20,986 bases of DNA from Bacteroidales bacterium (GTDB taxonomy: Bacteria; Bacteroidota; Bacteroidia; Bacteroidales; UBA932): positions 1 through 20,986 of the forward strand of contig JAFZLQ010000042.1 in the NCBI GenBank assembly GCA_017551425.1, given 5' to 3'. The translations under genes and the position numbers were made by a program. The notes beneath the pieces were generated by a model. The model saw only the letters and a program-made list of their open reading frames with translations, ran no database searches and was not told the origin of the DNA. Shown here one piece after another: positions 3,359-20,986 of this stretch (position 1 is its first letter; each line of letters opens with the position of its first letter).

Positions 3359-3361
3359 ATG

Positions 3362-4546: not shown

Positions 4547-4552
4547 ATTATC

Positions 4553-4561
4553 GCAAAAATA
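4553..4561 (-). promoter_or_regulatory. Candidate -7 box for the epimerase operon
   Basis: The minus strand reads TATTTTTGC, an exact match to the Bacteroidetes -7 consensus TAnnTTTGC. It ends only 6 nt before the ATG at 4546, so transcription from it would give an almost leaderless mRNA, or the start would be the ATG at 4522. No TTTG -33 box is seen at the usual 19-21 nt spacing. The call is therefore weak. Confidence 0.35.
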
Positions 4562-4573
4562 ACAATTTTTTGG

Positions 4574-4581
4574 TACATTTG
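4574..4581 (+). promoter_or_regulatory. Candidate -7 box for the MFS permease
   Basis: TACATTTG matches TAnnTTTG and would place the transcription start about 17-20 nt before the permease ATG at 4605. No good -33 TTTG lies at the right distance. The 58-nt intergenic gap therefore holds two back-to-back -7 boxes serving divergent genes. Confidence 0.45.
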
Positions 4582-4604
4582 TAGAGAACAAAGCAAAGAA
4601 AGCA

Positions 4605-5990
4605 ATGAGCAAATCCGTCAACATGGGATACGTGGTATTCCTGTGCATCGTAGCCGCGCTGGGCGGCATTCTTTTCGGTTATGACACCGCCGTCATATCT
4701 GGCACCACGGGCATCGTAAAGGCCCAGTTCGGCCTTTCCACGGGCCTGGAAGGCTGGTATGTGGGATGTGCGCTTATAGGCTCGATTATCGGCGTGGCCG
4801 TGGCCGGCCTGCTGTCGGACAATCTCGGCCGCAAGAGGACCATGCTCATCGCCGCGGCCATGTTCAGCATATCCGCCATCGGCTGCGCGGTCTGCCGGGA
4901 CTTTACCCAGCTGGTGGTTTACCGCATCATAGGTGGCTTCGGCATCGGCGTGGTTTCCATCGTTTCGCCCATTTATATCTCGGAGGTCGCGGTGCCGGAG
5001 AAACGAGGCACGCTCGTGTCCCTCTACCAGCTTGCAATCACCATCGGATTCCTGCTTGCATATCTTGTCAACTACCTGATACTCAAGGGCGCAGATCTCG
5101 ACGCATCCGCTCCCGGGCTGGGTTCCAGGATGATGAACAACGAGTACTGGCGCGGCATGCTCGGCAGCGAGACTTTCCCCGACCTGCTGTTCTTCGTCGT
5201 CATTTTCTTCATCCCGGAGAGCCCACGCTGGCTCATTGTCAAAAGGCGCGAGCCGGCGGCCTTGCGTATCCTTCAGCGCATCTACGGTACGCAGGCGGAG
5301 GCTTCCGTGCAGCTCGAGGCCACACGCCTGTCCATCGCCGGCGAGGTCAAGAGCGAGTGGAAGACCCTTCTGGAGCCCGGTATCTTCAAGGCCGTGCTAA
5401 TCGGATCGGCAATCGCCATCCTGGGCCAGTTCATGGGGGTCAATGCGGTCCTGTACTACGGCCCCAAGATTTTCCAGGACGCCGGCCTCAGCGGCGAGGG
5501 CTCGCTTCTGAGCACCGTGCTGGTGGGCGTGGTGAATATGCTCACCACCGTGGTTGCTTTGCTGATAATCGATAAGGTCGGGCGCAAGAAACTGGTCTGG
5601 TGGGGCGTCGGCGGCATGATCGCGTGCCTGCTGATGATAGGGCTTTATTTCGCCCTCGGCACGCTGCCTACCTGGTTCCTGCTGGTGTTCTTCCTGCTTT
5701 ATGTGTTCTGCACTGCCATCTCCATCAGCGCCGTGGTGTTCGTGCTGCTGAGCGAGATGTATCCCAACCGCGTGCGCGGGCTTGCGATGTCGGTTGCCGG
5801 ATTGGCGCTGTGGGTGGGGACGTATCTGATCGGGCAGCTTACGCCCTGGATGCTGGAGACCCTCACTCCCGCCGGCACTTTCTTCCTCTTCGCTTTCATG
5901 TGTCTGCCGTACCTCTTCATCATGTACAAGTGGGTGCCGGAGACTACCGGAAAGAGCCTGGAAGAGATCGAGAACTACTGGAAGAAATAG
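4605..5990 (+). CDS. MFS sugar porter (sugar:H+ symporter, XylE/AraE type)
   Basis: A 461-residue inner-membrane permease with the 12 hydrophobic segments expected of the sugar-porter branch of the major facilitator superfamily. Seen motifs are DTAVISG in helix 1, DNLGRKR in the loop after helix 2, the second sugar-transport signature IGVVSIVSPIYISEVAV with a following EKRG, PESPRWL at the end of helix 6, VGRKKL after helix 8, and PETTGKSLEEIE at the C-terminus. These point to proton-coupled uptake of a monosaccharide. The exact sugar is unknown; the divergent epimerase and glycosidase operon suggests a released hexose or amino sugar. The ATG at 4605 gives a short N-terminus directly before helix 1. 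The stop lies 5 nt before the first long palindrome. Confidence 0.93.
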   Translation: MSKSVNMGYVVFLCIVAALGGILFGYDTAVISGTTGIVKAQFGLSTGLEGWYVGCALIGSIIGVAVAGLLSDNLGRKRTMLIAAAMFSISAIGCAVCRDFTQLVVYRIIGGFGIGVVSIVSPIYISEVAVPEKRGTLVSLYQLAITIGFLLAYLVNYLILKGADLDASAPGLGSRMMNNEYWRGMLGSETFPDLLFFVVIFFIPESPRWLIVKRREPAALRILQRIYGTQAEASVQLEATRLSIAGEVKSEWKTLLEPGIFKAVLIGSAIAILGQFMGVNAVLYYGPKIFQDAGLSGEGSLLSTVLVGVVNMLTTVVALLIIDKVGRKKLVWWGVGGMIACLLMIGLYFALGTLPTWFLLVFFLLYVFCTAISISAVVFVLLSEMYPNRVRGLAMSVAGLALWVGTYLIGQLTPWMLETLTPAGTFFLFAFMCLPYLFIMYKWVPETTGKSLEEIENYWKK

Positions 5991-5995
5991 TTTCA

Positions 5996-6147
5996 GCCGG
6001 CGGCTTCATTTCGCGGGTAGACATCTGCGGAACTTCCGCTTCGCTCCATCCCTCCCACTGCGCTGCGCTTGTGGGCCCCTCCCGTTCACGCGGCCACGGG
6101 CGGCCACGGTTCCGCAGATGTCTACCCGCCTCCATTTCGCCACCGGC
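5996..6147. repeat. Long palindromic element B at the 3' end of the permease
   Basis: Arms at 6013-6033 and 6109-6129 are a perfect 21-bp inverted repeat enclosing 75 nt. Outer blocks GCCGGCGGC (5996-6004) and GCCACCGGC (6139-6147) pair with one G/T mismatch and extend the stem. Inside, in the sense of the permease mRNA, come CCGCTTCGCTCCATCCCTCC directly after the arm, a small CCCAC/GTGGG hairpin, and then GGGCCCCTCCCGTT. The same two blocks in the same order occur in element C, whose arm sequence is different. There is no T-run, so this is not a classical terminator, though it could stabilise or end the transcript. Function is unknown. Confidence 0.85.
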
Positions 6148-6180
6148 GATGACGGATTAACTGTTTCTAGCTATTTCAGA

Positions 6181-6367
6181 CTGACGTTTCCTGGAGCAGG
6201 GTACTGTATCCGGAAACCTTTGGTCACCCGTGACTATAAACGGGAGGGGCCCGCTGGATGCCGGGACGGATGGCAAGCTTGCTTGTCAGACGGCACGACA
6301 TTCAGTGGGAGGGGCGGAGCGAAGCGGAGGGTTTCCGGATACAGTACCCTGCGGGAGGAAATGTCAG
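6181..6367. repeat. Long palindromic element C at the 3' end of the GH89 gene
   Basis: Arms at 6196-6218 and 6330-6352 are a perfect 23-bp inverted repeat. Pairing extends outward to 6181-6195 and 6353-6367 with four mismatches, giving a stem of about 38 bp that takes in the GH89 stop codon at 6364-6366. In the GH89 mRNA sense the interior begins with CCGCTTCGCTCCGCCCCTCC next to the arm and later has GGGCCCCTCCCGTT, as in element B, with a longer variable middle containing AAGCAAGCTT. Together B and C fill the 373-nt convergent gap 5991-6363, where no gene is seen. Confidence 0.85.
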
Positions 6368-9210
6368 TATCTGGTTACTACGATAACCGGCAGGTGGTCG
6401 GAGGCTTCGGGGTGGGAGGAGTCTGTTGAGGAGGAGAGTTGAACTACGGGGGCGGCGGAGCGAAGGGTGAAGATGTAGTCGATGCAGCGGTCGGGAGAGC
6501 CGGAGGGGTAGGTGGGGGCGGTGCCGCTCAGTAGCAGCCAGTTCTCGGAGAGTATGGCCAGGGTTTCGCTGTCGGGGAGGGAGTTGAAGTCTCCGCAGAG
6601 GAAGACCGGCTTGGAGCTTCTGGAGTAATGTTCTGTGAACCAGTCGTTTATGGCCCGTGCCTGTGCGGGGCGCGCTTCGGTCCCGACATGGTCCAGGTGG
6701 GTGGCGGCAAGTACGTACCGTTCGGTTTCCGCTACTGCGACGCTGCGCTGCTCCGCGCCGTCGGCCACTGGCAGCAACAGCCTCTCGCTTCTGACCACAG
6801 GTTCTTTGCTTGCGATTCCGTTTCCGTATGAGCCGCCGGCGAAGCTGAGTGCGGAGGCGAAGCCGTACTGCCAGCCGCCGAGGCATTCCGCGAGCTCCCG
6901 GAGCTGATAGCCGTCATGCCGTCGGTTGCAGCTGTCGAGTTCGTTGAGGCAGACGGCGTCGGCTCCGTAGGCAAGGATGGCCCGGGCAACTTCTGCCATG
7001 CTGTCCAGGCTGTATTTCGAGAAGACTCCCACATTCCAGCTCATGAGCGTGAGCTTCCTGCCGAACCATTTGATATACAATTGGTTGCAGAGTTCTTGGA
7101 TGTCGTCTGCCGGTGCCGGTTCCGCTACAGCGGGGGCCGCCTCCACAATGGCCTTTTCAAAGGCCCCGACGAGCTCTTCCACCTTTTCCTGTTCGTATGG
7201 GCGCCCTTCGCGAAGGCAGTCGAGCGCTTCTTCCAGGAAGATTTCCCAGCGGGGGGCGTAATAGGTGGATATCAGCCCGCTCCACATCCTGGATGCGTAG
7301 TCTCCCAGGTACGGGGTGTCGCCCCACACGGTAACTATCTGCCAGGCGTTGTGGCGGTAGTACGCTTCTTCCCCCGGTCCGGCCCATCGAACGGCGTCTT
7401 TCAGCCAGTTCTCAAAGCGGAATGACGGCTCGCATGCGGCAAGGGTTGCGATGTCGTGGAGGAGATCCCTCATCTGCCCCGCAATCTCTTCTGCTGCAGC
7501 GGGTTGATTGTAACGGAAGGCGCCTGCGAATTCGTCCCGGAGTCGGGCAAAGCGGTCTCCCAGGGCCTGGCATCCGAGGTTGACGGCGTCGTACTTCCAG
7601 GCGTCCTGGCCGGCGGGGGAGTCCAGCAGTGTCTTCCACCGGCGGACTAGGGCGTCGGGATCGTACCGGGTCTCGTATATGACCCTCCAGTCATGCCTTC
7701 CCGCCATGACTGGGCGTCCGCAGAGGAGGGTGCCTTCCGAGAAAGATCCGCGGAGGTATATGCTGTCGGCCATGGCCTTCCAGAAGCCTTCCGGGCTGCC
7801 TCTGCGCCTGTCCAGGCCGGAGAGCCATTCGTCGTCGGAAGTGCCGCCGTCCCATGCCCGCGAGAGGACGTATTCGAAGAACCACCGGTTGACGCCGAAT
7901 CCTTCCAGCGTGCAGCCGATGCCGACCACTCCGTCATGCCCGGCCTGACCGGGCATCCCGAGGGCCTCCGTAATCCTCTGGCTTTCAGTGCGGAACGGCC
8001 CTGCGAGGCGGGTGTTGCCGCCAAAGTTGCCGAGGTAGCAGAATATCCACGGCTGGCCGTAGAAGCCGTCTGTAAGCTTCCAGACGGGCACATTCTCGGT
8101 GTAGTAGTCGAGTATTGTAACCTTCCCTTCCGGAACGGCCTCCAGATAGGCGCGTATGAGCTCCGGAGTCCAGTGCCGGCTGTCGTTGTAGAACATCCAT
8201 CCCATCTGGATCCAGCGGCCTTCCGGATCGGCGTCGGCAATGCTCCTGTACGCGCCTCTGCCTATTGCCGCAAGGGTCTGCGGATCCCAGCTCGGGGGCT
8301 CGATTTCGTTGAAAAGGTCGAATCCGTAGATGTGGTCGGTGCCGTATTCACGGGCCTGCGCCTCCAGGAAGGCTTTCTGGATGACTCCGTACAGGCTGTC
8401 CTGCGGAGATAGGAAGTAGGGGCGGTTCTCCTCCGGGAATCCGCACCAGCCGCGAATCTGCGTAATCTGCGCATCGGGATACAACTCCTTGAACTGCGCG
8501 GGGATATGGCCGCCGAAGGCCGGCAGCACAGGGTGCATCCCCAGCTCGCGCTCGCGCTTCAGTATCTTTTTCTGCAGTTCTTTCTGGCCGTCTATCCAGC
8601 CCTGGGGCAGGGGACCGTCAACCCCGTCTATGTTGCACATGCGGTGCCATGGCAGGTGTGCGGGGCCGGTGAACCATGCGCGGATGTCTTCGTCGGACAT
8701 GCCGAAGCTGTGCCAGACTTCCTGCCAGATTGCGTCCTGCCCGGTGATGGCAAGAGGCAGGTTGATGCCCTGCAGGGCCATCCAGTCGATGAATCTCTCC
8801 CAGTCTTCCCACTGCCACCAGGGCATGGTGTAGCCGAAGGTGCAGTAATTCAGGAAGAAGCGCTCCGGTACGATTGCGCTGCTGCTGATGACGCTGTCCG
8901 GCAGTGGCATCCGGGCCGTAAGCTCCACCGGGTGCACCCGCTCCCAGGAGACGTCCGCATGGCATACGTCGGCGAGGTAGCGCCCAAGTCCGGCGGCCAT
9001 TGCGTTGGCGGTGCTGCCGCATATCTGCAGCCTGCCGCCGTGTGCCGCTATGCTGTACGTTTCGGCGCTGTCCGCCGTCTGCCGGAAGCTTATACTGCCG
9101 GCGTACCGGGGCGCAATCCTGCGTGCCAGCCCCGCTGCCGCCCGCTCCGCCGGACTCTGGCAGGAAACCGCAGCGCACATCAGCAATATCAGAGGGAGAG
9201 ATCTTTTCAT
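6364..9210 (-). CDS. GH89 alpha-N-acetylglucosaminidase fused to an EEP-domain phosphodiesterase/phosphatase, lipoprotein
   Basis: The 948-residue product starts with a lipoprotein signal ending in AAVSC (Cys17); the ATG at 9210 is chosen because it begins this signal. Residues about 20-710 are NAGLU-like: an N-terminal alpha/beta domain, a barrel with DLFNEIEPPS (Glu302, fits the acid/base) and GCTLEGFGVN (Glu436, fits the nucleophile), then a helical domain. GH89 enzymes release terminal alpha-GlcNAc, for example from gastric-type mucin or heparan sulfate. From about residue 717 a complete endonuclease/exonuclease/phosphatase fold follows: SWNVG (Asn726), NELDS (Glu757), THLDH (His838, Asp840), GDFNS (Asp874, Asn876), IDYIF (Asp910) and SDHLP (Asp938, His939). 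These are the usual metal-binding and catalytic residues of DNase I, sphingomyelinase and phosphatase relatives. The two join in one frame with no second signal peptide. The EEP substrate is unknown. Confidence 0.92.
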   Translation of the reverse strand: MKRSLPLILLMCAAVSCQSPAERAAAGLARRIAPRYAGSISFRQTADSAETYSIAAHGGRLQICGSTANAMAAGLGRYLADVCHADVSWERVHPVELTARMPLPDSVISSSAIVPERFFLNYCTFGYTMPWWQWEDWERFIDWMALQGINLPLAITGQDAIWQEVWHSFGMSDEDIRAWFTGPAHLPWHRMCNIDGVDGPLPQGWIDGQKELQKKILKRERELGMHPVLPAFGGHIPAQFKELYPDAQITQIRGWCGFPEENRPYFLSPQDSLYGVIQKAFLEAQAREYGTDHIYGFDLFNEIEPPSWDPQTLAAIGRGAYRSIADADPEGRWIQMGWMFYNDSRHWTPELIRAYLEAVPEGKVTILDYYTENVPVWKLTDGFYGQPWIFCYLGNFGGNTRLAGPFRTESQRITEALGMPGQAGHDGVVGIGCTLEGFGVNRWFFEYVLSRAWDGGTSDDEWLSGLDRRRGSPEGFWKAMADSIYLRGSFSEGTLLCGRPVMAGRHDWRVIYETRYDPDALVRRWKTLLDSPAGQDAWKYDAVNLGCQALGDRFARLRDEFAGAFRYNQPAAAEEIAGQMRDLLHDIATLAACEPSFRFENWLKDAVRWAGPGEEAYYRHNAWQIVTVWGDTPYLGDYASRMWSGLISTYYAPRWEIFLEEALDCLREGRPYEQEKVEELVGAFEKAIVEAAPAVAEPAPADDIQELCNQLYIKWFGRKLTLMSWNVGVFSKYSLDSMAEVARAILAYGADAVCLNELDSCNRRHDGYQLRELAECLGGWQYGFASALSFAGGSYGNGIASKEPVVRSERLLLPVADGAEQRSVAVAETERYVLAATHLDHVGTEARPAQARAINDWFTEHYSRSSKPVFLCGDFNSLPDSETLAILSENWLLLSGTAPTYPSGSPDRCIDYIFTLRSAAPVVQLSSSTDSSHPEASDHLPVIVVTRY

Positions 9211-9263
9211 ACCGTAAATATACGAAAAATGGCGCAGCAAATTATTGTTTTTTACAAAAACCC

Positions 9264-9294
9264 TTTGCAAATGGTAGGAAAATTCCTACCTTTG
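9264..9294 (+). promoter_or_regulatory. hicAB promoter
   Basis: TTTG at 9264-9267, a 19-nt spacer, and TACCTTTG at 9287-9294 form a textbook Bacteroidetes -33/-7 promoter. Transcription would start near 9300, about 20 nt before the hicA ATG. The spacer and the first bases of the -7 box carry the palindrome annotated separately. Confidence 0.8.
9273..9290. promoter_or_regulatory. Operator-like palindrome in the hicAB promoter
   Basis: GGTAGGAAAATTCCTACC consists of two perfect 8-bp arms around AA. It fills the space between the -33 and -7 boxes and overlaps the start of the -7 box, so a bound protein would block RNA polymerase. HicB antitoxins with a DNA-binding C-terminus repress their own operon, so HicB is the natural candidate ligand. 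That assignment is inferred. Confidence 0.7.
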
Positions 9295-11918: not shown

Positions 11919-12050
11919 TTAAATTGTCCAGTCTTCTTCGGTCAGGTCTTCCAGGTCGCCCCCGACGATGCTGTCGCAGAGGATACCCGGAACGAACGAA
12001 TCGGACACTGTTTCAGGAACGATGTATTCCTGTCTGGGGTAAATAATCAT
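11919..12050 (-). CDS. Acidic microprotein upstream of lipoprotein (43 aa)
   Basis: An ATG-initiated 43-codon ORF lies in the intergenic space, ending in TAA 11 nt before the lipoprotein at 11907. Its product has a short polar N-terminus with YIVPE, a central VPGILCDS containing the only Cys, and an acidic tail ending EEDWTI. There is no signal peptide. The ORF upstream of the paralogous lipoprotein at 12118 has the matching layout: YRIPL, LPDILCGS and a final GDTWVL. That parallel argues the ORFs are real and translated. Function is unknown; a coupled leader, a partner of the lipoprotein, or a modified peptide are all possible. Confidence 0.65.
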   Translation of the reverse strand: MIIYPRQEYIVPETVSDSFVPGILCDSIVGGDLEDLTEEDWTI

Positions 12051-12068
12051 AAGTGCTTGATTTATATC

Positions 12069-12101
12069 AAAAAGCGGCGCCCGTGTTGGGCGGGCGCCGC
12101 T
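12069..12101 (-). terminator. Rho-independent terminator after the 659-aa lipoprotein gene
   Basis: A perfect 11-bp GC-rich stem, AGCGGCGCCCG at 12073-12083 with CGGGCGCCGCT at 12091-12101 and a 7-nt loop, is followed in minus-strand RNA by five U. It lies 16 nt past the lipoprotein stop and only 18 nt before the next microprotein ORF, so downstream genes would rely on read-through or a promoter too compact to recognise here. Confidence 0.85.
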
Positions 12102-12117
12102 AAATGGAGGAACGTGA

Positions 12118-14097
12118 TTATTTCATGTACATTTTGAATACACTCAAACCAACATTGTAGCAATGGCTGAGGATGTAGATTGCATCATCCGTTTTGACAA
12201 CGGAGCAACTTGCAAGTACGCGATCATCGATAATATATGAAGGATCGTCTGCGAACAGTACTTCATCGAATTCTGCTTCTGTAACAGCATTATCGTTGGA
12301 GTTCTGAATAGGATACTCGAAGAGAATGTTGTCTGCTTCTATCGAAGGACCGAATAACTCTGCGGAACCCTGGTCCGCGATGATCTTAAGACGTGCGCGG
12401 GCGCCATTCTTAATGTTTGTGTATTTGCCAACCTGTGTGTAAGCAATGTACTTATTACCATTGAACTCGAAAGGTGTTACACCATACTTGCGTCCCATTA
12501 CAGACTGGTCCTTTCCAGCCCAGGAGACACCGGAGAATCCGGCGATATAACCATCAAGAGTCAGATTATAGCGGATGCCGAGATTTTCATTCTCCAGAAG
12601 TACCTGGTTGGTATCAACGCCGTACTTATATATGACACCAAGGCCCTTGGAACCATCATAGCCGATGGATCCTCCGAGAGGAGAGCCGAGAACGCCATTC
12701 TTAACTGGCCAGCAAAGAGTGCTGGGCGACATGCGGTTGCGTACCCAGATTTCGCCATTGCTCCAATCTCCCACTACTGAGAAGATTTCTCCAAGGTGTC
12801 TTCCCTGCGAGTCTTTGAAATTGAGAACTCTGGTGGCAGGCTGATCAATTCCATCAAGGAATGCGTAGATATTGAGCTGATAACCGTCTCCTGCCTCATT
12901 CCACTCGCTTAAGCTGCAGGCAAGCAGAATATACTTCTGGGTTGTGGGGTTGTAGATAGTGTTCAGGGATGCAACTTTGAGGTAACCACCGTCAAAATTG
13001 GAAATGTTAAGCTCTTTGACATCGGTGGGATCATTCAGGTTGATGGCAAGGATACCGGGAGTACTGGTACTTGCGCCGACAACAAATGCGTACTCACCAT
13101 CGGTTGCAGCAGAACGGTCATTGCCGATAATGAAGCTGCCTGTAGTGGAAGAATACTCGGTAGTCCATGCCTGACCAAGGCCGCGAGGGACTTTGCACAT
13201 GATGCGCTCGACGGTTAGCTCAGGAGCGGGAGGCTCCGGCAGCGTAAGCGTTACCGATGCAACCTTGTTGCGCTCGATGGAGAGGGATTTGTCGGTAGCG
13301 AGGGTGCCGATGCAAGACAGGGTCTCGTCGTAAAATTCGAATTCAACGCCCTTTGTGAATGTCGTAGGAGGGAGGACGATGTAGTAGGATTTGCTGGTGG
13401 AAAGGGCAGTGCTGCTCAGGATGCCGGTCTCATAACCGGTTCCGGGATCGTCGGTCATGACAAGCTGGGGAATGCCGTTGGAGTCGAGTGTAATGCTGGC
13501 GGCGCCCCATACATTCTCATTGTTGTTGCCGTGGATGGTGACTGCATAGACACCCTCTGACTGGAGATTAACCTTGAGAAGGCCGCAGGCATTGCGGAAT
13601 GCAAGCTGGAGATTGTCTGAGCAGGCAACTGCGGGGAATGCGGCAGGATCGAAAGAACCGGCAACTGCATTCTGCAAATTGGGAAGCTCCAGTTTGATGG
13701 TACCGTCTTTAAGGGTAGTCGTGGCAGAATGAGGGTAAACGCCCCAGAACTTCTTGGCTGCGGCTGCTTCGTTGCCTTCAGCCACGCCCGTGATCATGTT
13801 GAGGACTCCGGTGAACTCTGCAGTAGCTGCAGGCTCGGTGTTCTTGGAAACGAACTTGCTGCCGGCGGCACCGCCGTCTCCGTAGAAGACGCTGATGCTG
13901 TCGTTCTTGTTCCAGAGTATGCTGACCGCATCCGAGGCAATGACGGTCTTGGTGCCGTCGTTGGTTGCGGTGATGGTGATCAATTCTCCAGCCTTGATGC
14001 CGGGAGCGGGGGCGAACTCAGTGTTGGTTTCTTTTTCGCAGCCGGCGAGTACGAGGGCGGCGAGGGCAATGGCGCTTATTGTTTTTAATGCTTTCAT
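12118..14097 (-). CDS. Surface lipoprotein paralogous to the one at 10012: fimbrillin-like plus DUF4623-like
   Basis: A 659-residue predicted lipoprotein with the signal ending in LVLAGC (Cys20). Residues about 35-290 repeat the fimbrillin-like pattern: TKTVIASDAVSILWNKNDSISVF, GVYPHSATTT, VVLPPTTFTKGVEFEFY, and a final LSIERNKVASVTLTL linker. The C-terminal part, about 300-659, parallels the 631-aa protein (VERIMCKVPRGLGQAW, GRHLGEIFSVVGDW, YNVGLSVFKMYMK). Base composition changes within the gene: 36 of 60 G or C at 13861-13920 in the N-terminal part against 26 of 60 at 12541-12600 in the C-terminal part, hinting at domain replacement. A microprotein ORF ends 17 nt upstream and both share the promoter near 14311-14343. 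No catalytic motif is seen; function unknown. Confidence 0.82.
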   Translation of the reverse strand: MKALKTISAIALAALVLAGCEKETNTEFAPAPGIKAGELITITATNDGTKTVIASDAVSILWNKNDSISVFYGDGGAAGSKFVSKNTEPAATAEFTGVLNMITGVAEGNEAAAAKKFWGVYPHSATTTLKDGTIKLELPNLQNAVAGSFDPAAFPAVACSDNLQLAFRNACGLLKVNLQSEGVYAVTIHGNNNENVWGAASITLDSNGIPQLVMTDDPGTGYETGILSSTALSTSKSYYIVLPPTTFTKGVEFEFYDETLSCIGTLATDKSLSIERNKVASVTLTLPEPPAPELTVERIMCKVPRGLGQAWTTEYSSTTGSFIIGNDRSAATDGEYAFVVGASTSTPGILAINLNDPTDVKELNISNFDGGYLKVASLNTIYNPTTQKYILLACSLSEWNEAGDGYQLNIYAFLDGIDQPATRVLNFKDSQGRHLGEIFSVVGDWSNGEIWVRNRMSPSTLCWPVKNGVLGSPLGGSIGYDGSKGLGVIYKYGVDTNQVLLENENLGIRYNLTLDGYIAGFSGVSWAGKDQSVMGRKYGVTPFEFNGNKYIAYTQVGKYTNIKNGARARLKIIADQGSAELFGPSIEADNILFEYPIQNSNDNAVTEAEFDEVLFADDPSYIIDDRVLASCSVVKTDDAIYILSHCYNVGLSVFKMYMK

Positions 14098-14114
14098 GTT
14101 CTGTGATTTAATTG

Positions 14115-14255
14115 TTAAAGTACCCAGGTGTCGCCTTCTTCAAGGCTTTCGTTTCCCCAGTCGTCGGGGCTACCGCACAGGATGTCGGGCAGGACATCGC
14201 TGAATTCAACAAGAGGAATCCTGTATTCCTCCTTCTTTTGGGTTAAATGAATCAT
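14115..14255 (-). CDS. Acidic microprotein upstream of lipoprotein (46 aa)
   Basis: An ATG-started 46-codon ORF ends in TAA 17 nt before the lipoprotein at 14097. The product has a basic-acidic N-terminus (TQKKEEYRIPL), a central LPDILCGSPDDW with the single Cys, and an acidic tail ending EEGDTWVL. It matches the layout of the 43-aa product at 11919: a YxIP-like start, an (P)xILCxS centre and a DW/TW plus hydrophobic end. It sits directly downstream of a candidate promoter and so would be the first translated unit of the mRNA. No signal peptide, no known domain. Confidence 0.65.
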   Translation of the reverse strand: MIHLTQKKEEYRIPLVEFSDVLPDILCGSPDDWGNESLEEGDTWVL

Positions 14256-14310
14256 AGGCATTATGGTATTAATATTGATTTCCAACTGTGGTGCACTGTG
14301 GTATTCAAAT

Positions 14311-14343
14311 GCAAATGTACAAAGAATTTCTTAACTTAGCAAG
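14311..14343 (-). promoter_or_regulatory. Promoter for the microprotein and 659-aa lipoprotein
   Basis: The minus strand reads TACATTTGC at 14311-14319, an exact TAnnTTTGC -7 box, with CTTG (one base off TTTG) 20 nt upstream at 14340-14343. Transcription would start near 14304, giving a leader of about 50 nt before the microprotein ATG at 14255. It overlaps the candidate GH20 -7 box on the other strand. Confidence 0.6.
14332..14340 (+). promoter_or_regulatory. Candidate -7 box for GH20
   Basis: TAACTTAGC differs from TAnnTTTGC at one base. It would start transcription near 14346, shortly before the GTG at 14360, and supports that start over the upstream ATG codons at 14309 and 14318. No -33 TTTG is seen at the right spacing. 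Confidence 0.35.
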
Positions 14344-14359
14344 CAAAACACATCGAAAC

Positions 14360-15877
14360 GTGAAACTATTCTTGTTTTTTCTTTTGTCGGTCTCTCTGAT
14401 TCCCGCTCCCGCAGAATACAAAGAGAATCCGCGTGCCATATATGATGTCTCCGTGCTCGGGAAGGTGAAGGAATACACAGGCCCACGCTGCAGCGCCGCT
14501 TTCCGCAGGAAACTGGCGCAGCTGCCGGATTTCGCCGCCGCCGAGGCGTACGAATTAAGCATAGGATCATGCGGCGTCAAGATACAGGCGCTCACGCCGG
14601 AAGGCGTTTTCCGTGCCCGCCAGACCCTTCTCAAGCTTGCCGCCACAGACAGCGCCCGCCACAGCTGCACCATCTTCGACTATCCCCGCTACAGGCATCG
14701 CGGCCTGATGATAGACGAGTCGCGCAGTTTCAAGGGCAAGGACTTCATCAAGAAACAGATAGACGCCATGGCCCTGCTCGGGCTCAACAGCCTGCACCTG
14801 CATCTCACCGACGCCGCCGGCTGGCGGATAGAGATAAAATCGCACCCGGAGCTCACGGAACGGGCGGCCTGGCGCATAGGCTACACTTATGCCGAATGGG
14901 AAGCCAGGGGCTATCCCTTCTCCACCCGGGACGATCCGGAGGCCTACGGCGGCTTCTACACCCAGGAGGACCTCCGCGAGATAGTCGCTTACGCATCGGA
15001 ACGCTACATACAGATAATCCCTGAAATAGAGATGCCGGGCCACAGCATGGAGGTCAACCGCACTTATCCTGACCTCGCCTGCCTCGACGAAAACGGCCGC
15101 CGGCGCAGCTTCAGCTGGGACCTCTGCCCCGGCAACGACGGAACCATCCGCCTGCTGGAAGACATACTCACCGAGGTCATAGACATTTTCCCCTGCAGAT
15201 ACGTGCACATCGGGGGCGACGAGGCCGTTATGAAAGACTGGCCGTCCTGCGTAAACTGCCGCAGGCGCATGCAGGAGGAGGGTTTTACGGACGTGCACCA
15301 GCTCCAGGGCTACCTCGTGAGCCACATCGCCGAGTGGCTGCGGGACCACGGCCGCACGGCCGTAGGCTGGGATGAAATCCTTGAGACCGGCATTACGGAA
15401 GACGCCGTCGTGATGAGCTGGCGCGGTACCGCCGGCGGACAGAAAGCCGCGGCGGCAGGACACAACGTGATAATGTCGCCCAACACCCACGTTTATTTCG
15501 ACTACTACCAGGACCTCATCCGCAAGGAGCCGCTGGCCGTAGGGGAACTCACGTCGCTCCACTGGGTCTATACCTACGACCCCGGCGACGACCCGCACAT
15601 CCTCGGGCTCCAGGCCAATCTCTGGTGCGAAAAGATCCCCACGGTCAGCCATGCCGAATACATGCTGTACCCGCGCCTGTTCGCGATAGCGGAGATCGGC
15701 TGGACTCCGGCCTCGCACCATAAAGACGCAGAAGAGTTCCGGCACCGTGCCAGAACCCTCCTGAATCTGTTCAAGTCGTTGGGCTACAACAGCTTCGACA
15801 TGGACACGGAGTCCGATTTCGCCCGCGCCGGCATGCGCCGCACCCAGGCCGGAGACCTTATTTATCCTATCTTCTGA
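14360..15877 (+). CDS. GH20 beta-N-acetylhexosaminidase
   Basis: From the GTG start the product has 505 residues: a signal peptide (KLFLFFLLSVSLIPAPA) without a clear lipobox Cys, a short GH20b-like N-terminal domain (to about residue 108), and a catalytic barrel. Barrel motifs are RGLMIDESRSF (114-124), HLHLTDAAGWRIEI (146-159), PEIEMPGH (221-228) and HIGGDEAVM, with Asp287-Glu288 as the catalytic pair of substrate-assisted GH20 enzymes; then VMSWRG (351-356), NTHVYFDYY and GLQANLW. It should remove terminal beta-GlcNAc or beta-GalNAc in the periplasm or at the surface. GTG at 14360 is chosen because it begins the signal peptide and follows the candidate -7 box; ATG at 14309 or 14318 would lengthen the N-terminus. 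It runs tail-to-tail into the lipoprotein gene on the other strand with 11 bp overlap. Confidence 0.92.
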   Translation: MKLFLFFLLSVSLIPAPAEYKENPRAIYDVSVLGKVKEYTGPRCSAAFRRKLAQLPDFAAAEAYELSIGSCGVKIQALTPEGVFRARQTLLKLAATDSARHSCTIFDYPRYRHRGLMIDESRSFKGKDFIKKQIDAMALLGLNSLHLHLTDAAGWRIEIKSHPELTERAAWRIGYTYAEWEARGYPFSTRDDPEAYGGFYTQEDLREIVAYASERYIQIIPEIEMPGHSMEVNRTYPDLACLDENGRRRSFSWDLCPGNDGTIRLLEDILTEVIDIFPCRYVHIGGDEAVMKDWPSCVNCRRRMQEEGFTDVHQLQGYLVSHIAEWLRDHGRTAVGWDEILETGITEDAVVMSWRGTAGGQKAAAAGHNVIMSPNTHVYFDYYQDLIRKEPLAVGELTSLHWVYTYDPGDDPHILGLQANLWCEKIPTVSHAEYMLYPRLFAIAEIGWTPASHHKDAEEFRHRARTLLNLFKSLGYNSFDMDTESDFARAGMRRTQAGDLIYPIF

Positions 15878-18263
15878 AGAATCCGACGGAGGATTTTACG
15901 TTGCGGGTGTCGGAAGAAATCAGCTTGCCCGTGCCTGATACCTGCATCTGGGTTGACAGGCCTCCGTCCAGGTTCATGGCGTAGTCGCAGCCGAGCCCTT
16001 TCATTATTCGGGCCATGGAGGTGATGGTGATGTTGTCGGGCACCGTCACCAGCCAGAACACGCCGGAGGCTGAATTGAAGCCTATGGCAGTCCTCTGGCG
16101 CGAGGAACCGTATATGTTGCCGGAAGTCGTCTCCCACAGCTCGTAATTGGTGTAATACACGCCGGTTGCAATCTTGTCTTCGCTCACGCAGACCTTGCCG
16201 TCGTACAGCAGCATGGGGCCTGTGGAAAGGGCCTCTGCGGGGCTCCAGGACCTGGCGGGACCGGGGCCGGAATTCGCCGTGACCTGGGGGTAAACCAGTT
16301 TGCCTGCGGTTCCGGCGGGGATGGGACGGTCGAAGAAATAGACTTTGCCGTCTATTACGGAGCACCAGTATGCTCCAGGCTTGCCGGATGCATCGACCCC
16401 CAGTATCGCCCTGGTGACAGGCTGCCACGTGGTGGTGTAGGTGTTGCTGTATCCGCGGCAGTTGGATACGCCCTCGGCGGAAGAATTGTTGTACCTCAGC
16501 TGCCCTCCGGTGTAGGCCACGCCTATGTTGCCCTGGCCGCCGAAGATCTGGCCGTTCACCAGCACCAGCGCGCCGCAGCTTTCCATCTGGGAGGCGAGGG
16601 AAATGGCGCTGCACGCACCCATGGGGGCGTTGTTCACTCCCACGCTGATGCCGCCTGAAAGGGAGGCGCATGCGGCGAATCCTTTGTACTGTCCGTTTGC
16701 CGTGAAGCTGTATAACGATATGTCGCTGTCCGGCGATGCGATTGCGGTCTTGCTGATGCTGAAGCCCTCCGGCTGGGCGGGAAGGGTGAGCTCGCGCACC
16801 TGGCTGTAAACGTAGTTGCCGTTGTCGAAGCAGTAGGCGCGGAGGTAGCAGGTGCCTCCGGGCCTGAGGCAGGCGTTGGGCACGCACTGGGTGATAGTCA
16901 CGTCGCCGGATGAAGAAAGCACCGGCCCGGGCAGCTTGCCCTCGGCCCCGACGGAGCCGCAGGTGGGCTGGCTGACGTCATAGCTGAATACGAGGCCGTG
17001 CTCAGCACCGGCGTCGGGCAGCCCGGAGATGCTGTAATCGACGATGAAATTGTAATAATTGACTGCGGCATCGTCGATGCTTACGGTCATGCTGCTGCCG
17101 GATGCGTTGAGGGTGATGTCTTCCAGCCAGACGGTGGGGGAGTCGTCGTAACCGCTCTGTCCGGTGGCGGCGGCGCTTACGCCCACGTCATAGCTGGCTC
17201 CGGTGGCGAGGCCATCGAAAGTATATTCGAATGCGCCGTACTGGTTGGCACCGGTGGACATGGAGCTCACCAGGGTTCCTGCACCCAGCGACGCGGCGGG
17301 ACGGACGTACAGTTTATATGTGTCCCTTGCTCCCGACCCGCAGCTGAACTTTATCTTTATGGAAGTGGGTGAGACCTGGCCTCCGGAGATGATTTCCGGT
17401 GCGATGAGCTCGGTGCCGGCCTGGCCGCGGTCGTTCGTGACCCTCCAGTCCTTGTCGAACAGGTTGACTATGGCGTTGCGCCTGAGGACCAGCGGCTTGT
17501 CGGAAACGTAGCGGTTGTACTTGTTGTCCGTGTTGTAGAAGGTCATCACGATGCCGCTGCTGTAGTTTCCGGGATACACCGCCGCGTAGTACCGTTTTGC
17601 TATGGTTCCCTGCCCGAACTCAACTTCCACGTAGTTCTTGCTTGCCGATGTGGGCGTGACTTCCGGGGCGCCGTCGTTGTAACTGATTGTGGCGGGGCCC
17701 GTCATGGGCACGCTGCCGTCGCGGCTCTCTATCACCACACGGTTGAGGTAATTGCCCGGTACGGTAAAGGACAGCAGGGCGCAGGCGTTCTTGAAATGCA
17801 GCACGTCATCGGCACCGGAGGCATCGGCATTCACGCGGGCGATGGCAAGATGCGCCGCCGGGTCGAAGCTGTTCTCCACCCCGCTCTGCTTTGCGGGGAG
17901 GCCGGCGGTAACAGTGCCGGCGGTGGAAACCAGCCTTGCGGAGGAAGAAGCGGGATTGAGGGCGTAATAGTAGCCGTTGGAGCTTTGCGGCGAGAGGCCG
18001 GAAAAGCTTGCGACCCTGCCGCCGTCGGAGACGGACGAGACCTTGAATTCCTGGCCGGCCTTGCCTGTCTGCGCAAAGAGGGTGATTGCGTCTGAACTGC
18101 TCCAGAGAATGCCCCAGGCGTCACTGAGAGCCGTTTTGGTTGAGGCTTCGCCGGCGGCGGTGAAGGTCATCGGCAAAAGGTCTGAGGGCGCTTCTACGGG
18201 ACTGAGCGCCTCCGGCGTACATGCCAGAAGCAGTATTGCAAAAGGAACTGTCATCGCTTTCAT
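15867..18263 (-). CDS. Lipoprotein with fimbrillin-like, Fn3-like and C-terminal phosphodiester glycosidase (NAGPA) domains
   Basis: A 798-residue lipoprotein from the ATG at 18263; the signal ends in LLLAC (Cys15). Residues about 20-275 are a fimbrillin-like module (STKTAL, WGILWSSSDAITLF, YYAAVYPGNY). Two Fn3-like segments follow (about 285-500, with YKLYVRP and CYLRAYCFDNG). The last roughly 270 residues form the phosphodiester glycosidase domain: SVGVNNAPMGAC, LVNGQIFGG, RTAIGF (724-729), and MNLDGGLST with Asp766. In animals this family (NAGPA) removes GlcNAc from GlcNAc-alpha-1-phospho-6-mannose; bacterial relatives act on sugar phosphodiesters. The usual DGGGS is here DGGLS, so activity needs testing. 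The ATG of the microprotein ORF lies just upstream and its stop is 1 nt from this start. Its last 11 bp overlap the GH20 3' end. Confidence 0.85.
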   Translation of the reverse strand: MKAMTVPFAILLLACTPEALSPVEAPSDLLPMTFTAAGEASTKTALSDAWGILWSSSDAITLFAQTGKAGQEFKVSSVSDGGRVASFSGLSPQSSNGYYYALNPASSSARLVSTAGTVTAGLPAKQSGVENSFDPAAHLAIARVNADASGADDVLHFKNACALLSFTVPGNYLNRVVIESRDGSVPMTGPATISYNDGAPEVTPTSASKNYVEVEFGQGTIAKRYYAAVYPGNYSSGIVMTFYNTDNKYNRYVSDKPLVLRRNAIVNLFDKDWRVTNDRGQAGTELIAPEIISGGQVSPTSIKIKFSCGSGARDTYKLYVRPAASLGAGTLVSSMSTGANQYGAFEYTFDGLATGASYDVGVSAAATGQSGYDDSPTVWLEDITLNASGSSMTVSIDDAAVNYYNFIVDYSISGLPDAGAEHGLVFSYDVSQPTCGSVGAEGKLPGPVLSSSGDVTITQCVPNACLRPGGTCYLRAYCFDNGNYVYSQVRELTLPAQPEGFSISKTAIASPDSDISLYSFTANGQYKGFAACASLSGGISVGVNNAPMGACSAISLASQMESCGALVLVNGQIFGGQGNIGVAYTGGQLRYNNSSAEGVSNCRGYSNTYTTTWQPVTRAILGVDASGKPGAYWCSVIDGKVYFFDRPIPAGTAGKLVYPQVTANSGPGPARSWSPAEALSTGPMLLYDGKVCVSEDKIATGVYYTNYELWETTSGNIYGSSRQRTAIGFNSASGVFWLVTVPDNITITSMARIMKGLGCDYAMNLDGGLSTQMQVSGTGKLISSDTRNVKSSVGFFRR

Positions 18264-18264
18264 C

Positions 18265-18384
18265 TTAAATCCCTCCATACTCTTCCGGATCGGTGAAATC
18301 TTCGCCGGTCGGGCTTGTTGCAATAAAGAAGTCGCCTGTAAACGCACACCAGTACGTTTCCGGACATTTGTAAAACTCTTTCAT
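18265..18384 (-). CDS. Microprotein between regulator and NAGPA lipoprotein (39 aa)
   Basis: An ATG-initiated 39-codon ORF starts 2 nt after the regulator stop and ends in TAA 1 nt before the lipoprotein ATG, so it fills the gap exactly. The product begins KEFYKCPETYW, carries FTGDFFIATS in the middle and ends acidic, EDFTDPEEYGGI. It resembles the 43- and 46-aa ORFs only in size, acidity, lack of a signal and position before a fimbrillin-like lipoprotein; sequence similarity is weak. The packing suggests translational coupling. Function unknown. Confidence 0.55.
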   Translation of the reverse strand: MKEFYKCPETYWCAFTGDFFIATSPTGEDFTDPEEYGGI

Positions 18385-18386
18385 CG

Positions 18387-19412
18387 TCAGAAAGTCTTTC
18401 TGCGTATCATGTAGAAGGGGCAGTGAATCTTCTCCAGCTTGTGGGAGTGGATCATGCGGGCGGCGAGGCGTCCCATTTCCTTGAAGTCGGTGGACACGGT
18501 GGTGAGGCCGCCTAGCACGAGTTCGTTCATGTCGGATTCGTTGTAGGAAATGATGCGCACGTCTGTCCCTATATTGAGCCCGCAAGCCTGGATGTTGCGC
18601 GACAGCGCCACCAGGCCGGCGTCGAGCTGGGAGTTCAGCACCAGGAAGGTGTCGCCGGGGAAAATGTCTTCGGGAGCGCTCGTGAGGAACTCAACGGGCA
18701 TGCCGCGCTCGTGTGCGAATCGCTCCACGCCCTTGCGTATGCTGCTTCCGTACAGTGACGACGGCAGGGTGATGACCCTCAGTTTGGTAATGGTGGAGCC
18801 TACCCGGAAGCCGTCCGTCAGGCCGGAATAGATGTCGTTTTCGAAGTCCTGATATACGGCCCCGAAGCGTCCTTCATAGCCCGGCTGCATGTGGTCTATC
18901 ATTATGAGCTTGCGGTTGGGGATCCTGGCGATTTGCTTAAGCGCCTTTGCCTGGGTGGCCTTGTCCAGGGGGAAGTGGGGCGCTATCACGTAATAGTCGA
19001 ACCTGTCCAGATTGCTGTCCAGGAAGTATTCGAACAGCTCTATGCTCTGGTTGTGGTTGAGAATGGTTATCTGCGCCGAATTGCCCAGATGCTCGGCGAA
19101 CGAGTTGAACAGTATCTGCTTGTACAGCGAGAACTTGTCGAATATCACCAGCACCTGCTGGCGTGCGTCCGCGTTCAGGTCTGCCGCATAGAAGCCCTTG
19201 CCCTGTTTGGGGATGATGACGCCGCGGTCGGTCAGTATGCCGTATGCCTTCTTGGCCGTCTCCCGGGAGATGCCGAAGCTGGAGGCAAGCTCGTTCATGC
19301 TGGGGAGCAGTTCTCCCGCCTTGAGCCGGCCTTCGTGCAGGGCGAGTTCGACCTCGCGTACCAACTGCTTGTAAATGGGCTCTTTGTCGTTGGGTGTCAG
19401 ATGGAAACTCAT
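18387..19412 (-). CDS. GntR-family regulator with LacI/periplasmic-binding-like sensor domain
   Basis: A 341-residue transcription factor. Residues about 10-78 are a GntR winged helix (EPIYKQLVREVELAL, PSMNELASSFGISRETAKKAY, GVIIPKQGKGFY). Residues about 86-340 match the type 1 periplasmic-binding fold used by LacI/GalR proteins (VLVIFDKFS, YYVIAPHFP, KLIMIDH, VRIISYNESDMNEL, TTVSTDFKEMGRLAARMI). The same GntR-plus-sugar-sensor arrangement occurs in Bacteroides sugar regulators such as the fucose regulator. Its ATG overlaps the stop of the upstream glycosidase by four bases, and the microprotein follows 2 nt after its stop, so it is in the middle of the operon it most likely controls. The ligand is presumably a sugar released by these enzymes. 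Confidence 0.9.
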   Translation of the reverse strand: MSFHLTPNDKEPIYKQLVREVELALHEGRLKAGELLPSMNELASSFGISRETAKKAYGILTDRGVIIPKQGKGFYAADLNADARQQVLVIFDKFSLYKQILFNSFAEHLGNSAQITILNHNQSIELFEYFLDSNLDRFDYYVIAPHFPLDKATQAKALKQIARIPNRKLIMIDHMQPGYEGRFGAVYQDFENDIYSGLTDGFRVGSTITKLRVITLPSSLYGSSIRKGVERFAHERGMPVEFLTSAPEDIFPGDTFLVLNSQLDAGLVALSRNIQACGLNIGTDVRIISYNESDMNELVLGGLTTVSTDFKEMGRLAARMIHSHKLEKIHCPFYMIRRKTF

Positions 19413-20986
19413 ATCTCTTCAAATATAAGCACAGCCAGGCCGTTCTGTTCCAGGCTGATCCTGTTATTGCTTACGGACGCTCCGCCTATGGTGCGGCAGT
19501 CCGTCTGTCTGTATCCCTGTGCGTCTATCCTGCAGCTCCGGCGTTCCACGCCCGTGTTGGTGACAACCACGGCCATGCGTCCGGGGGCGGTGTAGCTGCG
19601 CGCCACCACTGCGGGATTGGAGCAGCTGAAGCCGTCTGTCGCGGTGTAGCGCCCTTCGAGCAGCAGCTCGGGGAACTCGTGGCGGATGGCGTTGACCTTT
19701 GCCAGATGTGCCTGATACACAGGTGTTTCGTCAATCAGGCCGCGGCAGCGAAAGACTTCTATGTCGTTGCGGAGACCTTTGAGCAGGGTATTGTTCACGC
19801 GGCGGGGGACGTCGTTGTCGTCACGTACGCAGCGGTCGCTCCACACCACCTCGGGGAAGGTGTAGCGGAACCATTCGGGGAAGCTTTCCGGCAGTGCGGT
19901 GAATTCCACTATGTGTACGAAGTCGCAGGCCTGGCTGGTGCAGTCGCTGAGCCATTCGGTGCCGAGTGCGAATTCGGGGTCGATGGCTTTGATGTGGTCG
20001 CGTATCTCCTGCAGGGCTTCGGCCTTGTATCGTCCCGTGAAGATGTCCTGCACGGGGAATTCGCGGCTGAGGTCCCAGTTGGGGAATTCTTCCGCCACGC
20101 CGAGCTGGTCGTAGAATACTGCGTCGGCTCCGTAGGCCATGGCCCTGTCGGCCCAGGCGATGAGCTGGTCGCGCCATTCGCGCTTGCTCATGTCTGCGAT
20201 TACGAAGGTGCGGGAGTCGTAGTAGCCGAGGGTGGTGCCTTCGCCGGTGAATTTGTAGCGTTCGGTGAATTCGCGGCCGGTGTTGTCTTTGTTGGAGACG
20301 CGTTTTCCTCCGCCTTGCCTGTAGAAGTCGCTCTCTACGTCTATCAGGCGGCCGTTGTAGTACAGCAGCAGGCGGTTGCCTGCGGAGCGGTAGTCGGCTA
20401 TGGCCTTTTTCCATGCCGCGTCGCCACCCTGGGTGTCATCGACCGTGTAGTTGGGGTAGCCGTTGTCCATGCCTTCTTTCCACCAGCCGAATGCGAGTAC
20501 TGCGTTGCAGCCTACGGATTCTCCGGCTGCGGCGATGCGGCCGGGGAGGTCTTCGTAGCTGCGGAGGTATTCGCCGTACTGGTGTTTGAAGATGATCCGC
20601 TGCCAGCCTGTCATGTCCTGTACCCAGCGGGGGACTGCCTCATGATGCCACCAGGTGTCGGCCCAGCGGCGGTAGATGCGGCCCGTCTCTGTCCAGTCGC
20701 CCTTGTATGGCACGATGACGGTGGCGTCGTTGGACCAGCTGTCGCCGCACATGGCGTTGGGATAGCGGTAGAATCCCGCTTCCAACCTGGTGAAGTCCGA
20801 TGCTACGTGGCCGATTCTTTCCGCTGCATGTTCGCGTGGAGTGCCAGGAGATTTCTCGGCTGCGCTCGAAATGACAGGGGTGTCATCTCGACCAAGCGTA
20901 GCGCGTGGAGTGCCAGGAGATTTCTCGGCTGCGCTCGAAATGACAGGGGTGTCATCTCGACCAAGCGTAGCGCGTGGAGTGCCAGG
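19409..20986 (-). CDS. DUF6259-like glycoside hydrolase, 5' end beyond the window
   Basis: The reading frame stays open from the stop at 19409 to the window edge, 525 codons, with no ATG in the 67 codons above the TTG at 20785. Continuity of the protein pattern (HVASDFTRLEAGFYRYP) argues that TTG is internal. The visible part has a barrel-like region with LAFGWWKEGMDNGYP, RLLLYYNGRLID, GADAVFYDQLG (Asp226 counted from that TTG) and FALGTEWLSD (Glu277), the last two being candidate catalytic residues, then a C-terminal beta domain ending AVLIFEE. This looks like the DUF6259 group of putative glycosidases; that name is from memory. The N-terminal part includes an in-frame 69-bp tandem repeat. 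The stop overlaps the regulator start (ATGA), placing it first among the operon genes seen here. Confidence 0.72.
   Translation of the reverse strand, partial: PGTPRATLGRDDTPVISSAAEKSPGTPRATLGRDDTPVISSAAEKSPGTPREHAAERIGHVASDFTRLEAGFYRYPNAMCGDSWSNDATVIVPYKGDWTETGRIYRRWADTWWHHEAVPRWVQDMTGWQRIIFKHQYGEYLRSYEDLPGRIAAAGESVGCNAVLAFGWWKEGMDNGYPNYTVDDTQGGDAAWKKAIADYRSAGNRLLLYYNGRLIDVESDFYRQGGGKRVSNKDNTGREFTERYKFTGEGTTLGYYDSRTFVIADMSKREWRDQLIAWADRAMAYGADAVFYDQLGVAEEFPNWDLSREFPVQDIFTGRYKAEALQEIRDHIKAIDPEFALGTEWLSDCTSQACDFVHIVEFTALPESFPEWFRYTFPEVVWSDRCVRDDNDVPRRVNNTLLKGLRNDIEVFRCRGLIDETPVYQAHLAKVNAIRHEFPELLLEGRYTATDGFSCSNPAVVARSYTAPGRMAVVVTNTGVERRSCRIDAQGYRQTDCRTIGGASVSNNRISLEQNGLAVLIFEEI
20833..20986. 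repeat. 69-bp tandem palindromic repeat inside the glycosidase reading frame
   Basis: The unit CGCGTGGAGTGCCAGGAGAT and following bases repeat exactly with a period of 69 bp, 2.2 copies to the window end. Each unit holds a hairpin: CGAAATGACA, GGGG, TGTCATCTCG (one mismatch), extended by GCTGCGCT against AGCGTAGC. Since 69 is 23 codons, the minus-strand frame of the glycosidase stays open, reading units that include SPGTPRATLGRDDTPVISSA. The motif resembles dispersed Bacteroidetes intergenic repeats. Confidence 0.85.

Follow-up and report, generated by a model that had tools for sequence, protein, structure and literature searches.

A conserved family of lipoprotein-coupled microproteins in Bacteroidales: probable precursors of a peptide-modification pathway

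Three open reading frames (ORFs) in a contig of a Bacteroidales bacterium (JAFZLQ010000042.1, assembly GCA_017551425.1; the whole stretch of 20,986 nucleotides is called the window below) are members of a conserved peptide family that extends beyond the window. They encode microproteins of 43, 46 and 39 residues, and each directly precedes a lipoprotein gene. The peptides and their coupling to lipoproteins are firmly supported. In related genomes the family is conserved and coupled in the same way, and a set of modification genes is present that co-occurs with the peptides and is occasionally physically linked to them. The three ORFs probably encode precursors of a pathway of the RiPP type (ribosomally synthesized and post-translationally modified peptides), which would depend on a RiPP recognition element (RRE) and would operate in the manner described for linear polyphosphorylated peptides (LPP) in Bacillota (Popov et al., Nat Commun, 20 May 2026; PMC13381572, whose accessible part is the source of all statements on LPP made here). 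Among the readings considered, that of a modified precursor is the best supported, as suggested by the Y-x-x-P motif, a near-invariant serine at near-fixed spacing, and the co-occurrence and occasional linkage with the cassette.

The microprotein family and its lipoprotein partners

Members of the family have a Y-x-x-P motif, followed at a nearly fixed distance by [C/A/S]-x-S and then by an acidic tail, mostly with a terminal aromatic residue. The Tyr and Pro are invariant in the 78 aligned members, partly through profile selection. Counted from the Tyr, Cys stands at +17 in 55 members and Ser at +19 in 67, and the [CAS]xS motif is found at +18 to +20 in 76, as against 3.5 ± 1.8 in 500 shuffles of the part that follows Y-x-x-P. 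The original prediction had described an ILCxS centre with a single Cys. The motif stands in the broader form [C/A/S]-x-S, and the Cys is rejected as the functional centre: its column holds C in 63 members, A in 11, S in 3 and V in 1, so that 15 of the 78 have Ala, Ser or Val there. Two positions further on, Ser is present in 77 members and Met in one, with no Ala or Gly. The predicted acidic tail is confirmed (median 16 residues after the motif, net charge -5), and 73/78 members have an aromatic among their final five residues. The third peptide, first thought to be only weakly similar, is a true member: it has both Y..P and [CA]xS, and a similar peptide precedes a related NAGPA (phosphodiester glycosidase) lipoprotein in a Bacteroidales metagenome-assembled genome (MAG). 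All five peptides of the window and of locus L001 in that MAG, located by position and not by profile, fit the Y-x-x-P/[CA]xS rule.

Over seven close ortholog pairs the pooled ratio of nonsynonymous to synonymous substitution rates (dN/dS) is 0.245, with 21, 18 and 55 substitutions in the first, second and third codon positions, which indicates purifying selection on the amino acids; the synonymous bias and the conservation in related genomes that the original prediction had proposed to look for are thus both present. Larger profiles matched 17/59 family-level genomes (E <= 0.1), 33/61 genus-level genomes (E <= 0.01) and 7/198 order-level genomes (E <= 0.001), with at least 10 matches in 8 of the 61 genus-level genomes and a maximum of 15. 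Pfam and NCBIfam have no model for the family, only single members among the 78 scanned giving a match (best E 0.0079), and those protein-database matches that their source names are hypothetical proteins.

Within the genome collection, the closest relative to turn up was one locus of an uncultured Bacteroidales MAG (G001). The protein encoded there matches residues 291-659 of lipoprotein 2 at 78% identity and differs in the rest, which has another N-terminal module and GLUG motifs; a microprotein lies 12 nt before it, and on the opposite strand the related NAGPA-type lipoprotein has a homologue of microprotein 3 in front of it. L001 7115-11110 and window 12118-14097 have a common C-terminal part and differ in N-terminal modules, GLUG motifs and microproteins. 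One C-terminal part joined to different N-terminal modules and microproteins in two relatives points to an exchange of modules.

Searching G001 with a profile of six peptides gave 13 places: 11 at E <= 0.124, each with a lipoprotein gene starting at -29 to +16 nt, and two at E > 0.5, which were discarded as noise. Elsewhere at the family level, 21 of 26 matches with a locus lie upstream of a lipoprotein gene (20 at -35 to +40 nt, one at 144), the other five being probable noise. At the genus level 52 matches were fetched, which come from seven hit-rich genomes and are part of the full list; 49 of them precede a lipoprotein gene at -38 to +22 nt, where "lipoprotein", which in all these counts rests on a crude lipobox pattern and on inspection by eye, stands for the pattern in 42 cases and a call by eye in seven. 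Among the other three, one lies about 200 nt before another microprotein, one has its lipoprotein start about 170 nt on, beyond the 150-nt limit, and one (G107 C28) has none.

The coupling also holds in the reverse direction. Here "fimbrillin-like" is shorthand for a signal peptide and Cys followed by TKT/TRT...W...D.I.VF, not a family match. In 526 kb of G091 and G001, searched with profiles from which both genomes and the window had been left out, a microprotein lies directly upstream of 14/25 fimbrillin-like ORFs and of 3/331 other genes (p 6e-16), of which three one is the same gene as a fimbrillin-like ORF cut at a contig end and two are lipoproteins by eye. By ORF order, several of the 11 fimbrillin-like ORFs that have no microprotein seem to be second genes behind one that does. 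The assignment to a fimbrillin or DUF4623 family that had been expected did not hold: neither DUF4623 nor any fimbrillin family of Pfam matches one of the three window lipoproteins; for lipoproteins 1 and 2 Pfam gives nothing at E values up to 1, and lipoprotein 3 has NAGPA (PF09992) above cut-off, fn3 below cut-off and two weak matches. Searched against curated models, three lipoproteins of relatives gave Glug only, or none.

Small peptides with Y-x-x-P...[CA]xS were also seen directly downstream of large secreted proteins, at L162-L167, L169 and L170 (G229) and at L168 and L173 (G137). The NCBIfam sorting domain of the type IX secretion system (T9SS) is found in 2/8 of these partners, both in G137, and in 0/6 of those in G229, whose T9SS-like tails were recognised by eye. 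These remote relatives stand behind secreted proteins, two of which have a T9SS sorting domain, so any surface protein may serve as the partner.

A cassette in related genomes and the proposed pathway

Most of the microprotein-positive genomes sampled have a cassette that encodes a discrete RRE, a signal-peptidase-like protease, a kinase of the HprK/PEPCK fold and an MsbA-like exporter. The RRE of relatives scores 60 bits against PF05402 (cut-off 23.4), and its nearest folds are lasso-peptide RREs solved with their leaders. The protease is present in 37/41 cassette windows, with GxSMxP, HR and GDGN each conserved at 90% or more; these motifs are invariant in a 10-row alignment. Against curated models one protease reaches TIGR02228 at 1.8e-8, below its cut-off, and another has no NCBIfam match. 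The kinase has the P-loop SGTGKST, other invariant residues and a PEPCK/HprK fold. For the exporter the best NCBIfam model is MsbA (E 3.8e-69, below the equivalog cut-off); MsbA-like exporters occur in 29/40 windows (L212-L251), and in the G001-type run the exporter directly follows the RRE. A nucleoside triphosphate (NTP) transferase (PF14907) is confirmed in G137 only, with similar genes recognised by eye in a few other genomes. Reading the cassette maps by eye, without a profile search for these enzymes, revealed neither a macrolactam cyclase nor a B2-type protease. More distant runs of PqqD, kinase, S26-like protease and ABC genes were seen at L265 and L267, each behind an ORF with a T9SS-like C-terminus by eye.

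The kinase tends to accompany the microproteins. It is present in 9/9 microprotein-positive and 14/50 negative genomes of the family sample (p 6.5e-5), and in 37/41 versus 34/78 when the family and genus samples are pooled (p 3e-7); these tests ignore kinship, and the kinase model comes mostly from microprotein-positive genomes. In the order sample it is found in 7/7 positive and 28/191 negative genomes (p 3e-6), the positives including G230, whose match contains stop codons and is noise; without it p is 1.8e-5. Outside this pattern, G105 has the RRE and protease only, and G027, positive at the looser microprotein cut-off, a protease match only. Physical linkage is occasional: a microprotein and lipoprotein pair directly adjoins the cassette, before or after it, in G012 and its relative G050, in G015 (two pairs), G038, G024 and G231. 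By a rough estimate that assumes 2000 genes and 5-15 pairs per genome, 0.1 to 0.3 loci with immediate same-strand adjacency are expected, and five independent ones are observed.

Several observations weigh against reading the microproteins as precursors served by this cassette. The cassette is absent from the window, and the kinase scores only 16-19 bits against HprK models (HprK_rel_A, cut-off 200). In the genus sample the kinase is found in 28/32 positive and 20/28 negative genomes (p 0.11, not significant), and among the negative genomes of the pooled family and genus samples 34/78 have it. Microprotein matches in cassette windows (7/40) compared with control windows (2/40, p 0.077) are weak evidence when taken alone. 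The 40 cassette windows were picked around RRE or kinase matches, which makes these two markers present by construction; the seven include a weak match at L247 (E 0.01, about 2 kb away) and the near-identical loci G012 and G050, and exclude L174, which was found through its microprotein; and the controls were drawn from 20 genomes, the hit-rich ones not being among them. G091 has 14 microprotein matches and an RRE of this type, with kinase and protease not found, and none of the three markers was found in G066 and G077, nor in G052, which is positive only at the looser microprotein cut-off; these assemblies may be incomplete. The conserved columns are in part selected for, most members having been gathered by profile, and the HQ and FET of the LPP leader are not among them in the 78 Bacteroidales members.

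The pathway can be modelled on that of LPP. A discrete PqqD-like RRE, its gene lying at another place in the genome, would bind the Y-x-x-P leader, and the HprK/PEPCK-fold kinase would phosphorylate the conserved Ser of [C/A]-x-S. Next to this motif, a soluble protease resembling archaeal-type signal peptidases would remove the leader, and the MsbA-like ABC transporter would export the acidic, aromatic-ended core of roughly 15-20 residues. The scattered precursors would be matured in trans by the cassette, and coupling of the precursor gene to a lipoprotein gene would ensure that peptide and surface protein are made together. Signal peptidases select their cleavage site by the -3/-1 rule. Cleavage exactly after [C/A]xS, as this rule would have it, is questionable, the last position being Ser in 77 members and Met in one, never Ala or Gly. 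LPP are cut two residues before the phosphorylated Ser3 (PMC13381572), so by analogy cleavage just before the Cys or Ala would be at least as likely. The role we favour, though with more doubt than trust, is that the exported peptide would act together with the N-terminal module of the surface protein outside the cytoplasm.

The original prediction had left a choice between leader peptides, chaperone-like partners and modified precursors; the last is now best supported, and the other two are unlikely. That such ORFs stand before lipoprotein genes by chance is refuted: among 2000 base-shuffled 330-mers of the window, 106 have an ORF of 35-70 codons that stops within the final 30 nt, so that a single one would mean little, but three of three with a common motif that is conserved elsewhere, under purifying selection and recurring in many genomes, are not a matter of chance. 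The very short gaps to the lipoprotein gene, often an overlap or a few nucleotides, and the position of the peptides at the head of the unit would suit leader ORFs that act in cis, their translation controlling or boosting that of the lipoprotein (by stalling, attenuation or reinitiation) and their product having no further role; reinitiation at leader peptides has been proposed in general (accessible part of PMC4833913). We consider this unlikely in view of the two peptide motifs at near-fixed spacing, the purifying selection on amino acids, the remote relatives of G229 and G137 that lie downstream of or apart from the partner gene, and the RRE cassette. A cis-acting role could nevertheless exist in addition to that of a precursor.

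It is also improbable that the microproteins, as unmodified small partners or chaperones, bind to the lipoprotein or to the machinery that exports it, with other peptides being served by the RRE cassette. The coupling to lipoproteins would fit, as would the co-variation of the peptide tail, which over 52 pairs is stronger with the N-terminal module of the lipoprotein (r 0.53) than with its C-terminal 200 residues (r 0.29; 0.28 and 0.14 for distant pairs only), but joint duplication could yield the same co-variation, and this explanation accounts neither for Y-x-x-P and the near-invariant Ser nor for the linkage with RRE, kinase, protease and exporter. Lasso peptide precursors are a very remote prospect: the fold of the RRE is nearest to lasso RREs and Y-x-x-P is a leader motif named for lasso peptides (accessible part of PMC12710340), while the cassette maps show by eye neither the cyclase nor the B2-type protease and the protease that is there is signal-peptidase-like. 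Modified, LPP-like precursors are thus the reading we prefer.

Features of the window

The features of the three gene pairs are listed in Table 1. All three microprotein ORFs, as the original prediction had placed them, run from ATG to TAA, with the next lipoprotein ATG 11, 17 and 1 nt on; an alternative upstream TTG start would lengthen microprotein 2 to 56 residues. At the similarity searched, the protein database gave only microprotein 1 itself (P0001) for the first peptide. A phage collection had no match to microprotein 2. The lipoproteins are related and share an N-terminal module, as had been claimed; 1 and 2 are 28% identical over 678 aligned columns, and 2 and 3 have an N-terminal stretch in common.

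Table 1. Coordinates of the microproteins, their motif segments and the downstream lipoproteins in the window
Feature	Position	Strand	Remarks
Microprotein 1, 43 aa	11919..12050	-	ATG...TAA; stops 11 nt before lipoprotein 1
Y-x-x-P to [C]-x-S segment, microprotein 1	11970..12026	-	Tyr9, Pro12, Cys25, Ser27; Ser = Y+18
Lipoprotein 1, 631 aa	10012..11907	-	28% identity to lipoprotein 2; no Pfam family
Microprotein 2, 46 aa	14115..14255	-	Stops 17 nt before lipoprotein 2; protein-database relative P0002
Y-x-x-P to [C]-x-S segment, microprotein 2	14169..14225	-	Tyr11, Pro14, Cys27, Ser29; Ser = Y+18
Lipoprotein 2, 659 aa	12118..14097	-	C-terminal half 78% identical to MAG G001 protein; no Pfam family
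Microprotein 3, 39 aa	18265..18384	-	Stops 1 nt before lipoprotein 3; relatives P0007, P0009 and peptide at L001 6715-6855
Y-x-x-P to [A]-x-S segment, microprotein 3	18313..18372	-	Tyr5, Pro8, Ala22, Ser24; Ser = Y+19
Lipoprotein 3, 798 aa	15867..18263	-	C-terminal NAGPA (phosphodiester glycosidase) domain, PF09992 E 9.1e-18

In the gap from the end of lipoprotein 2 to microprotein 1 lies an inverted repeat rich in G+C with TTTTT behind it (12067-12101, minus strand), so that the first pair may be transcribed as a separate unit. By sequence, 1100-9270 and 14288-20785 resemble a glycan-use locus, with a GH20 enzyme (PF00728) and a GntR/LacI-type regulator and, by eye, a GH3-like enzyme, an epimerase and a sugar transporter. 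The product of 6364-9270 looks by eye like an NAGLU-like protein, seemingly fused to an endonuclease/phosphatase-like domain. The contig end (20824-20986) is made up of head-to-tail repeats with a unit of about 67 bases.

Comparison with LPP and other RiPP systems

LPP precursors have the leader consensus YxxPxVLxHQxIxFETxxS, and their machinery consists of a discrete RRE, a SipW-like protease that requires Ser, His and Asp, an HprK-like kinase, an NTP transferase and an MsbA-like exporter (PMC13381572). The Bacteroidales system is alike in its discrete RRE, archaeal-type signal-peptidase-like protease, HprK-like kinase and MsbA-like exporter, perhaps in the NTP transferase of some genomes, in the YxxP leader, and in that no cyclase is recognised. 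The LPP kinase phosphorylates Ser3 only, and the changes S3A, S3T and S3Y fail (PMC13381572). Counted from the published numbering, this Ser lies at Y+18, two residues after an Ala in LppA; the conserved Ser of the Bacteroidales peptides lies at Y+18 to Y+20, mostly two after Cys or Ala, and by this analogy is the likely phospho-acceptor. The two systems differ in phylum and in arrangement: LPP clusters of Bacillota have 1-3 precursors and lie near capsule loci, whereas the Bacteroidales precursors are mostly scattered, with up to 15 matches per genome, and are coupled to lipoproteins. Because the full LPP leader consensus is not found in it, the Bacteroidales family is kept apart from LPP.

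Lasso peptide systems with a discrete B1/RRE (TbiB1, 5v1u/5v1v; TfuB1, 6jx3) have the same RRE fold and a Y-x-x-P leader; their cyclase and B2 protease were not recognised by eye in the maps of the Bacteroidales cassettes. Bacteroidales RiPP clusters mined with BAGEL4 likewise have RiPP-type precursors, with radical SAM (rSAM) or YcaO enzymes, GG-motif precursors and peptidase-containing transporters; the accessible text of that study (PMC10352776) contains "fimbrillin", "lipoprotein" and "YxxP" 0 times and "PqqD" once, in the reference list. In the accessible texts of PMC12710340 and PMC7470986, "bacteroid", "HPr", "kinase" and "lipoprotein" occur 0 times. Among the matches listed in our literature searches there was no published description of an LPP-like form in Bacteroidales and no mention of fimbrillin in work on RiPPs or precursor peptides, and PMC13381572 was the sole relevant paper on LPP.

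The accessible part of PMC13381572 calls LPP "restricted to the Bacillota" and their role unknown. If an LPP-like pathway is linked to surface lipoproteins, pathways of this sort would be present in a second phylum, LPP products would gain a role that can be tested, and a group of hypothetical small proteins that recur in Bacteroidales would have an explanation. We tentatively picture a genome-wide peptide-adhesin system, in which one cassette might serve at least 10 scattered precursors, each made with its own surface lipoprotein, and the phosphopeptide might serve the fimbrillin-like module of that lipoprotein as a dedicated ligand, cap or signal. If so, the relatives attached to T9SS cargo (the two G137 proteins) would be a second form of the same principle, and RiPP chemistry would here be a part of surface assembly, not a source of antibiotics.

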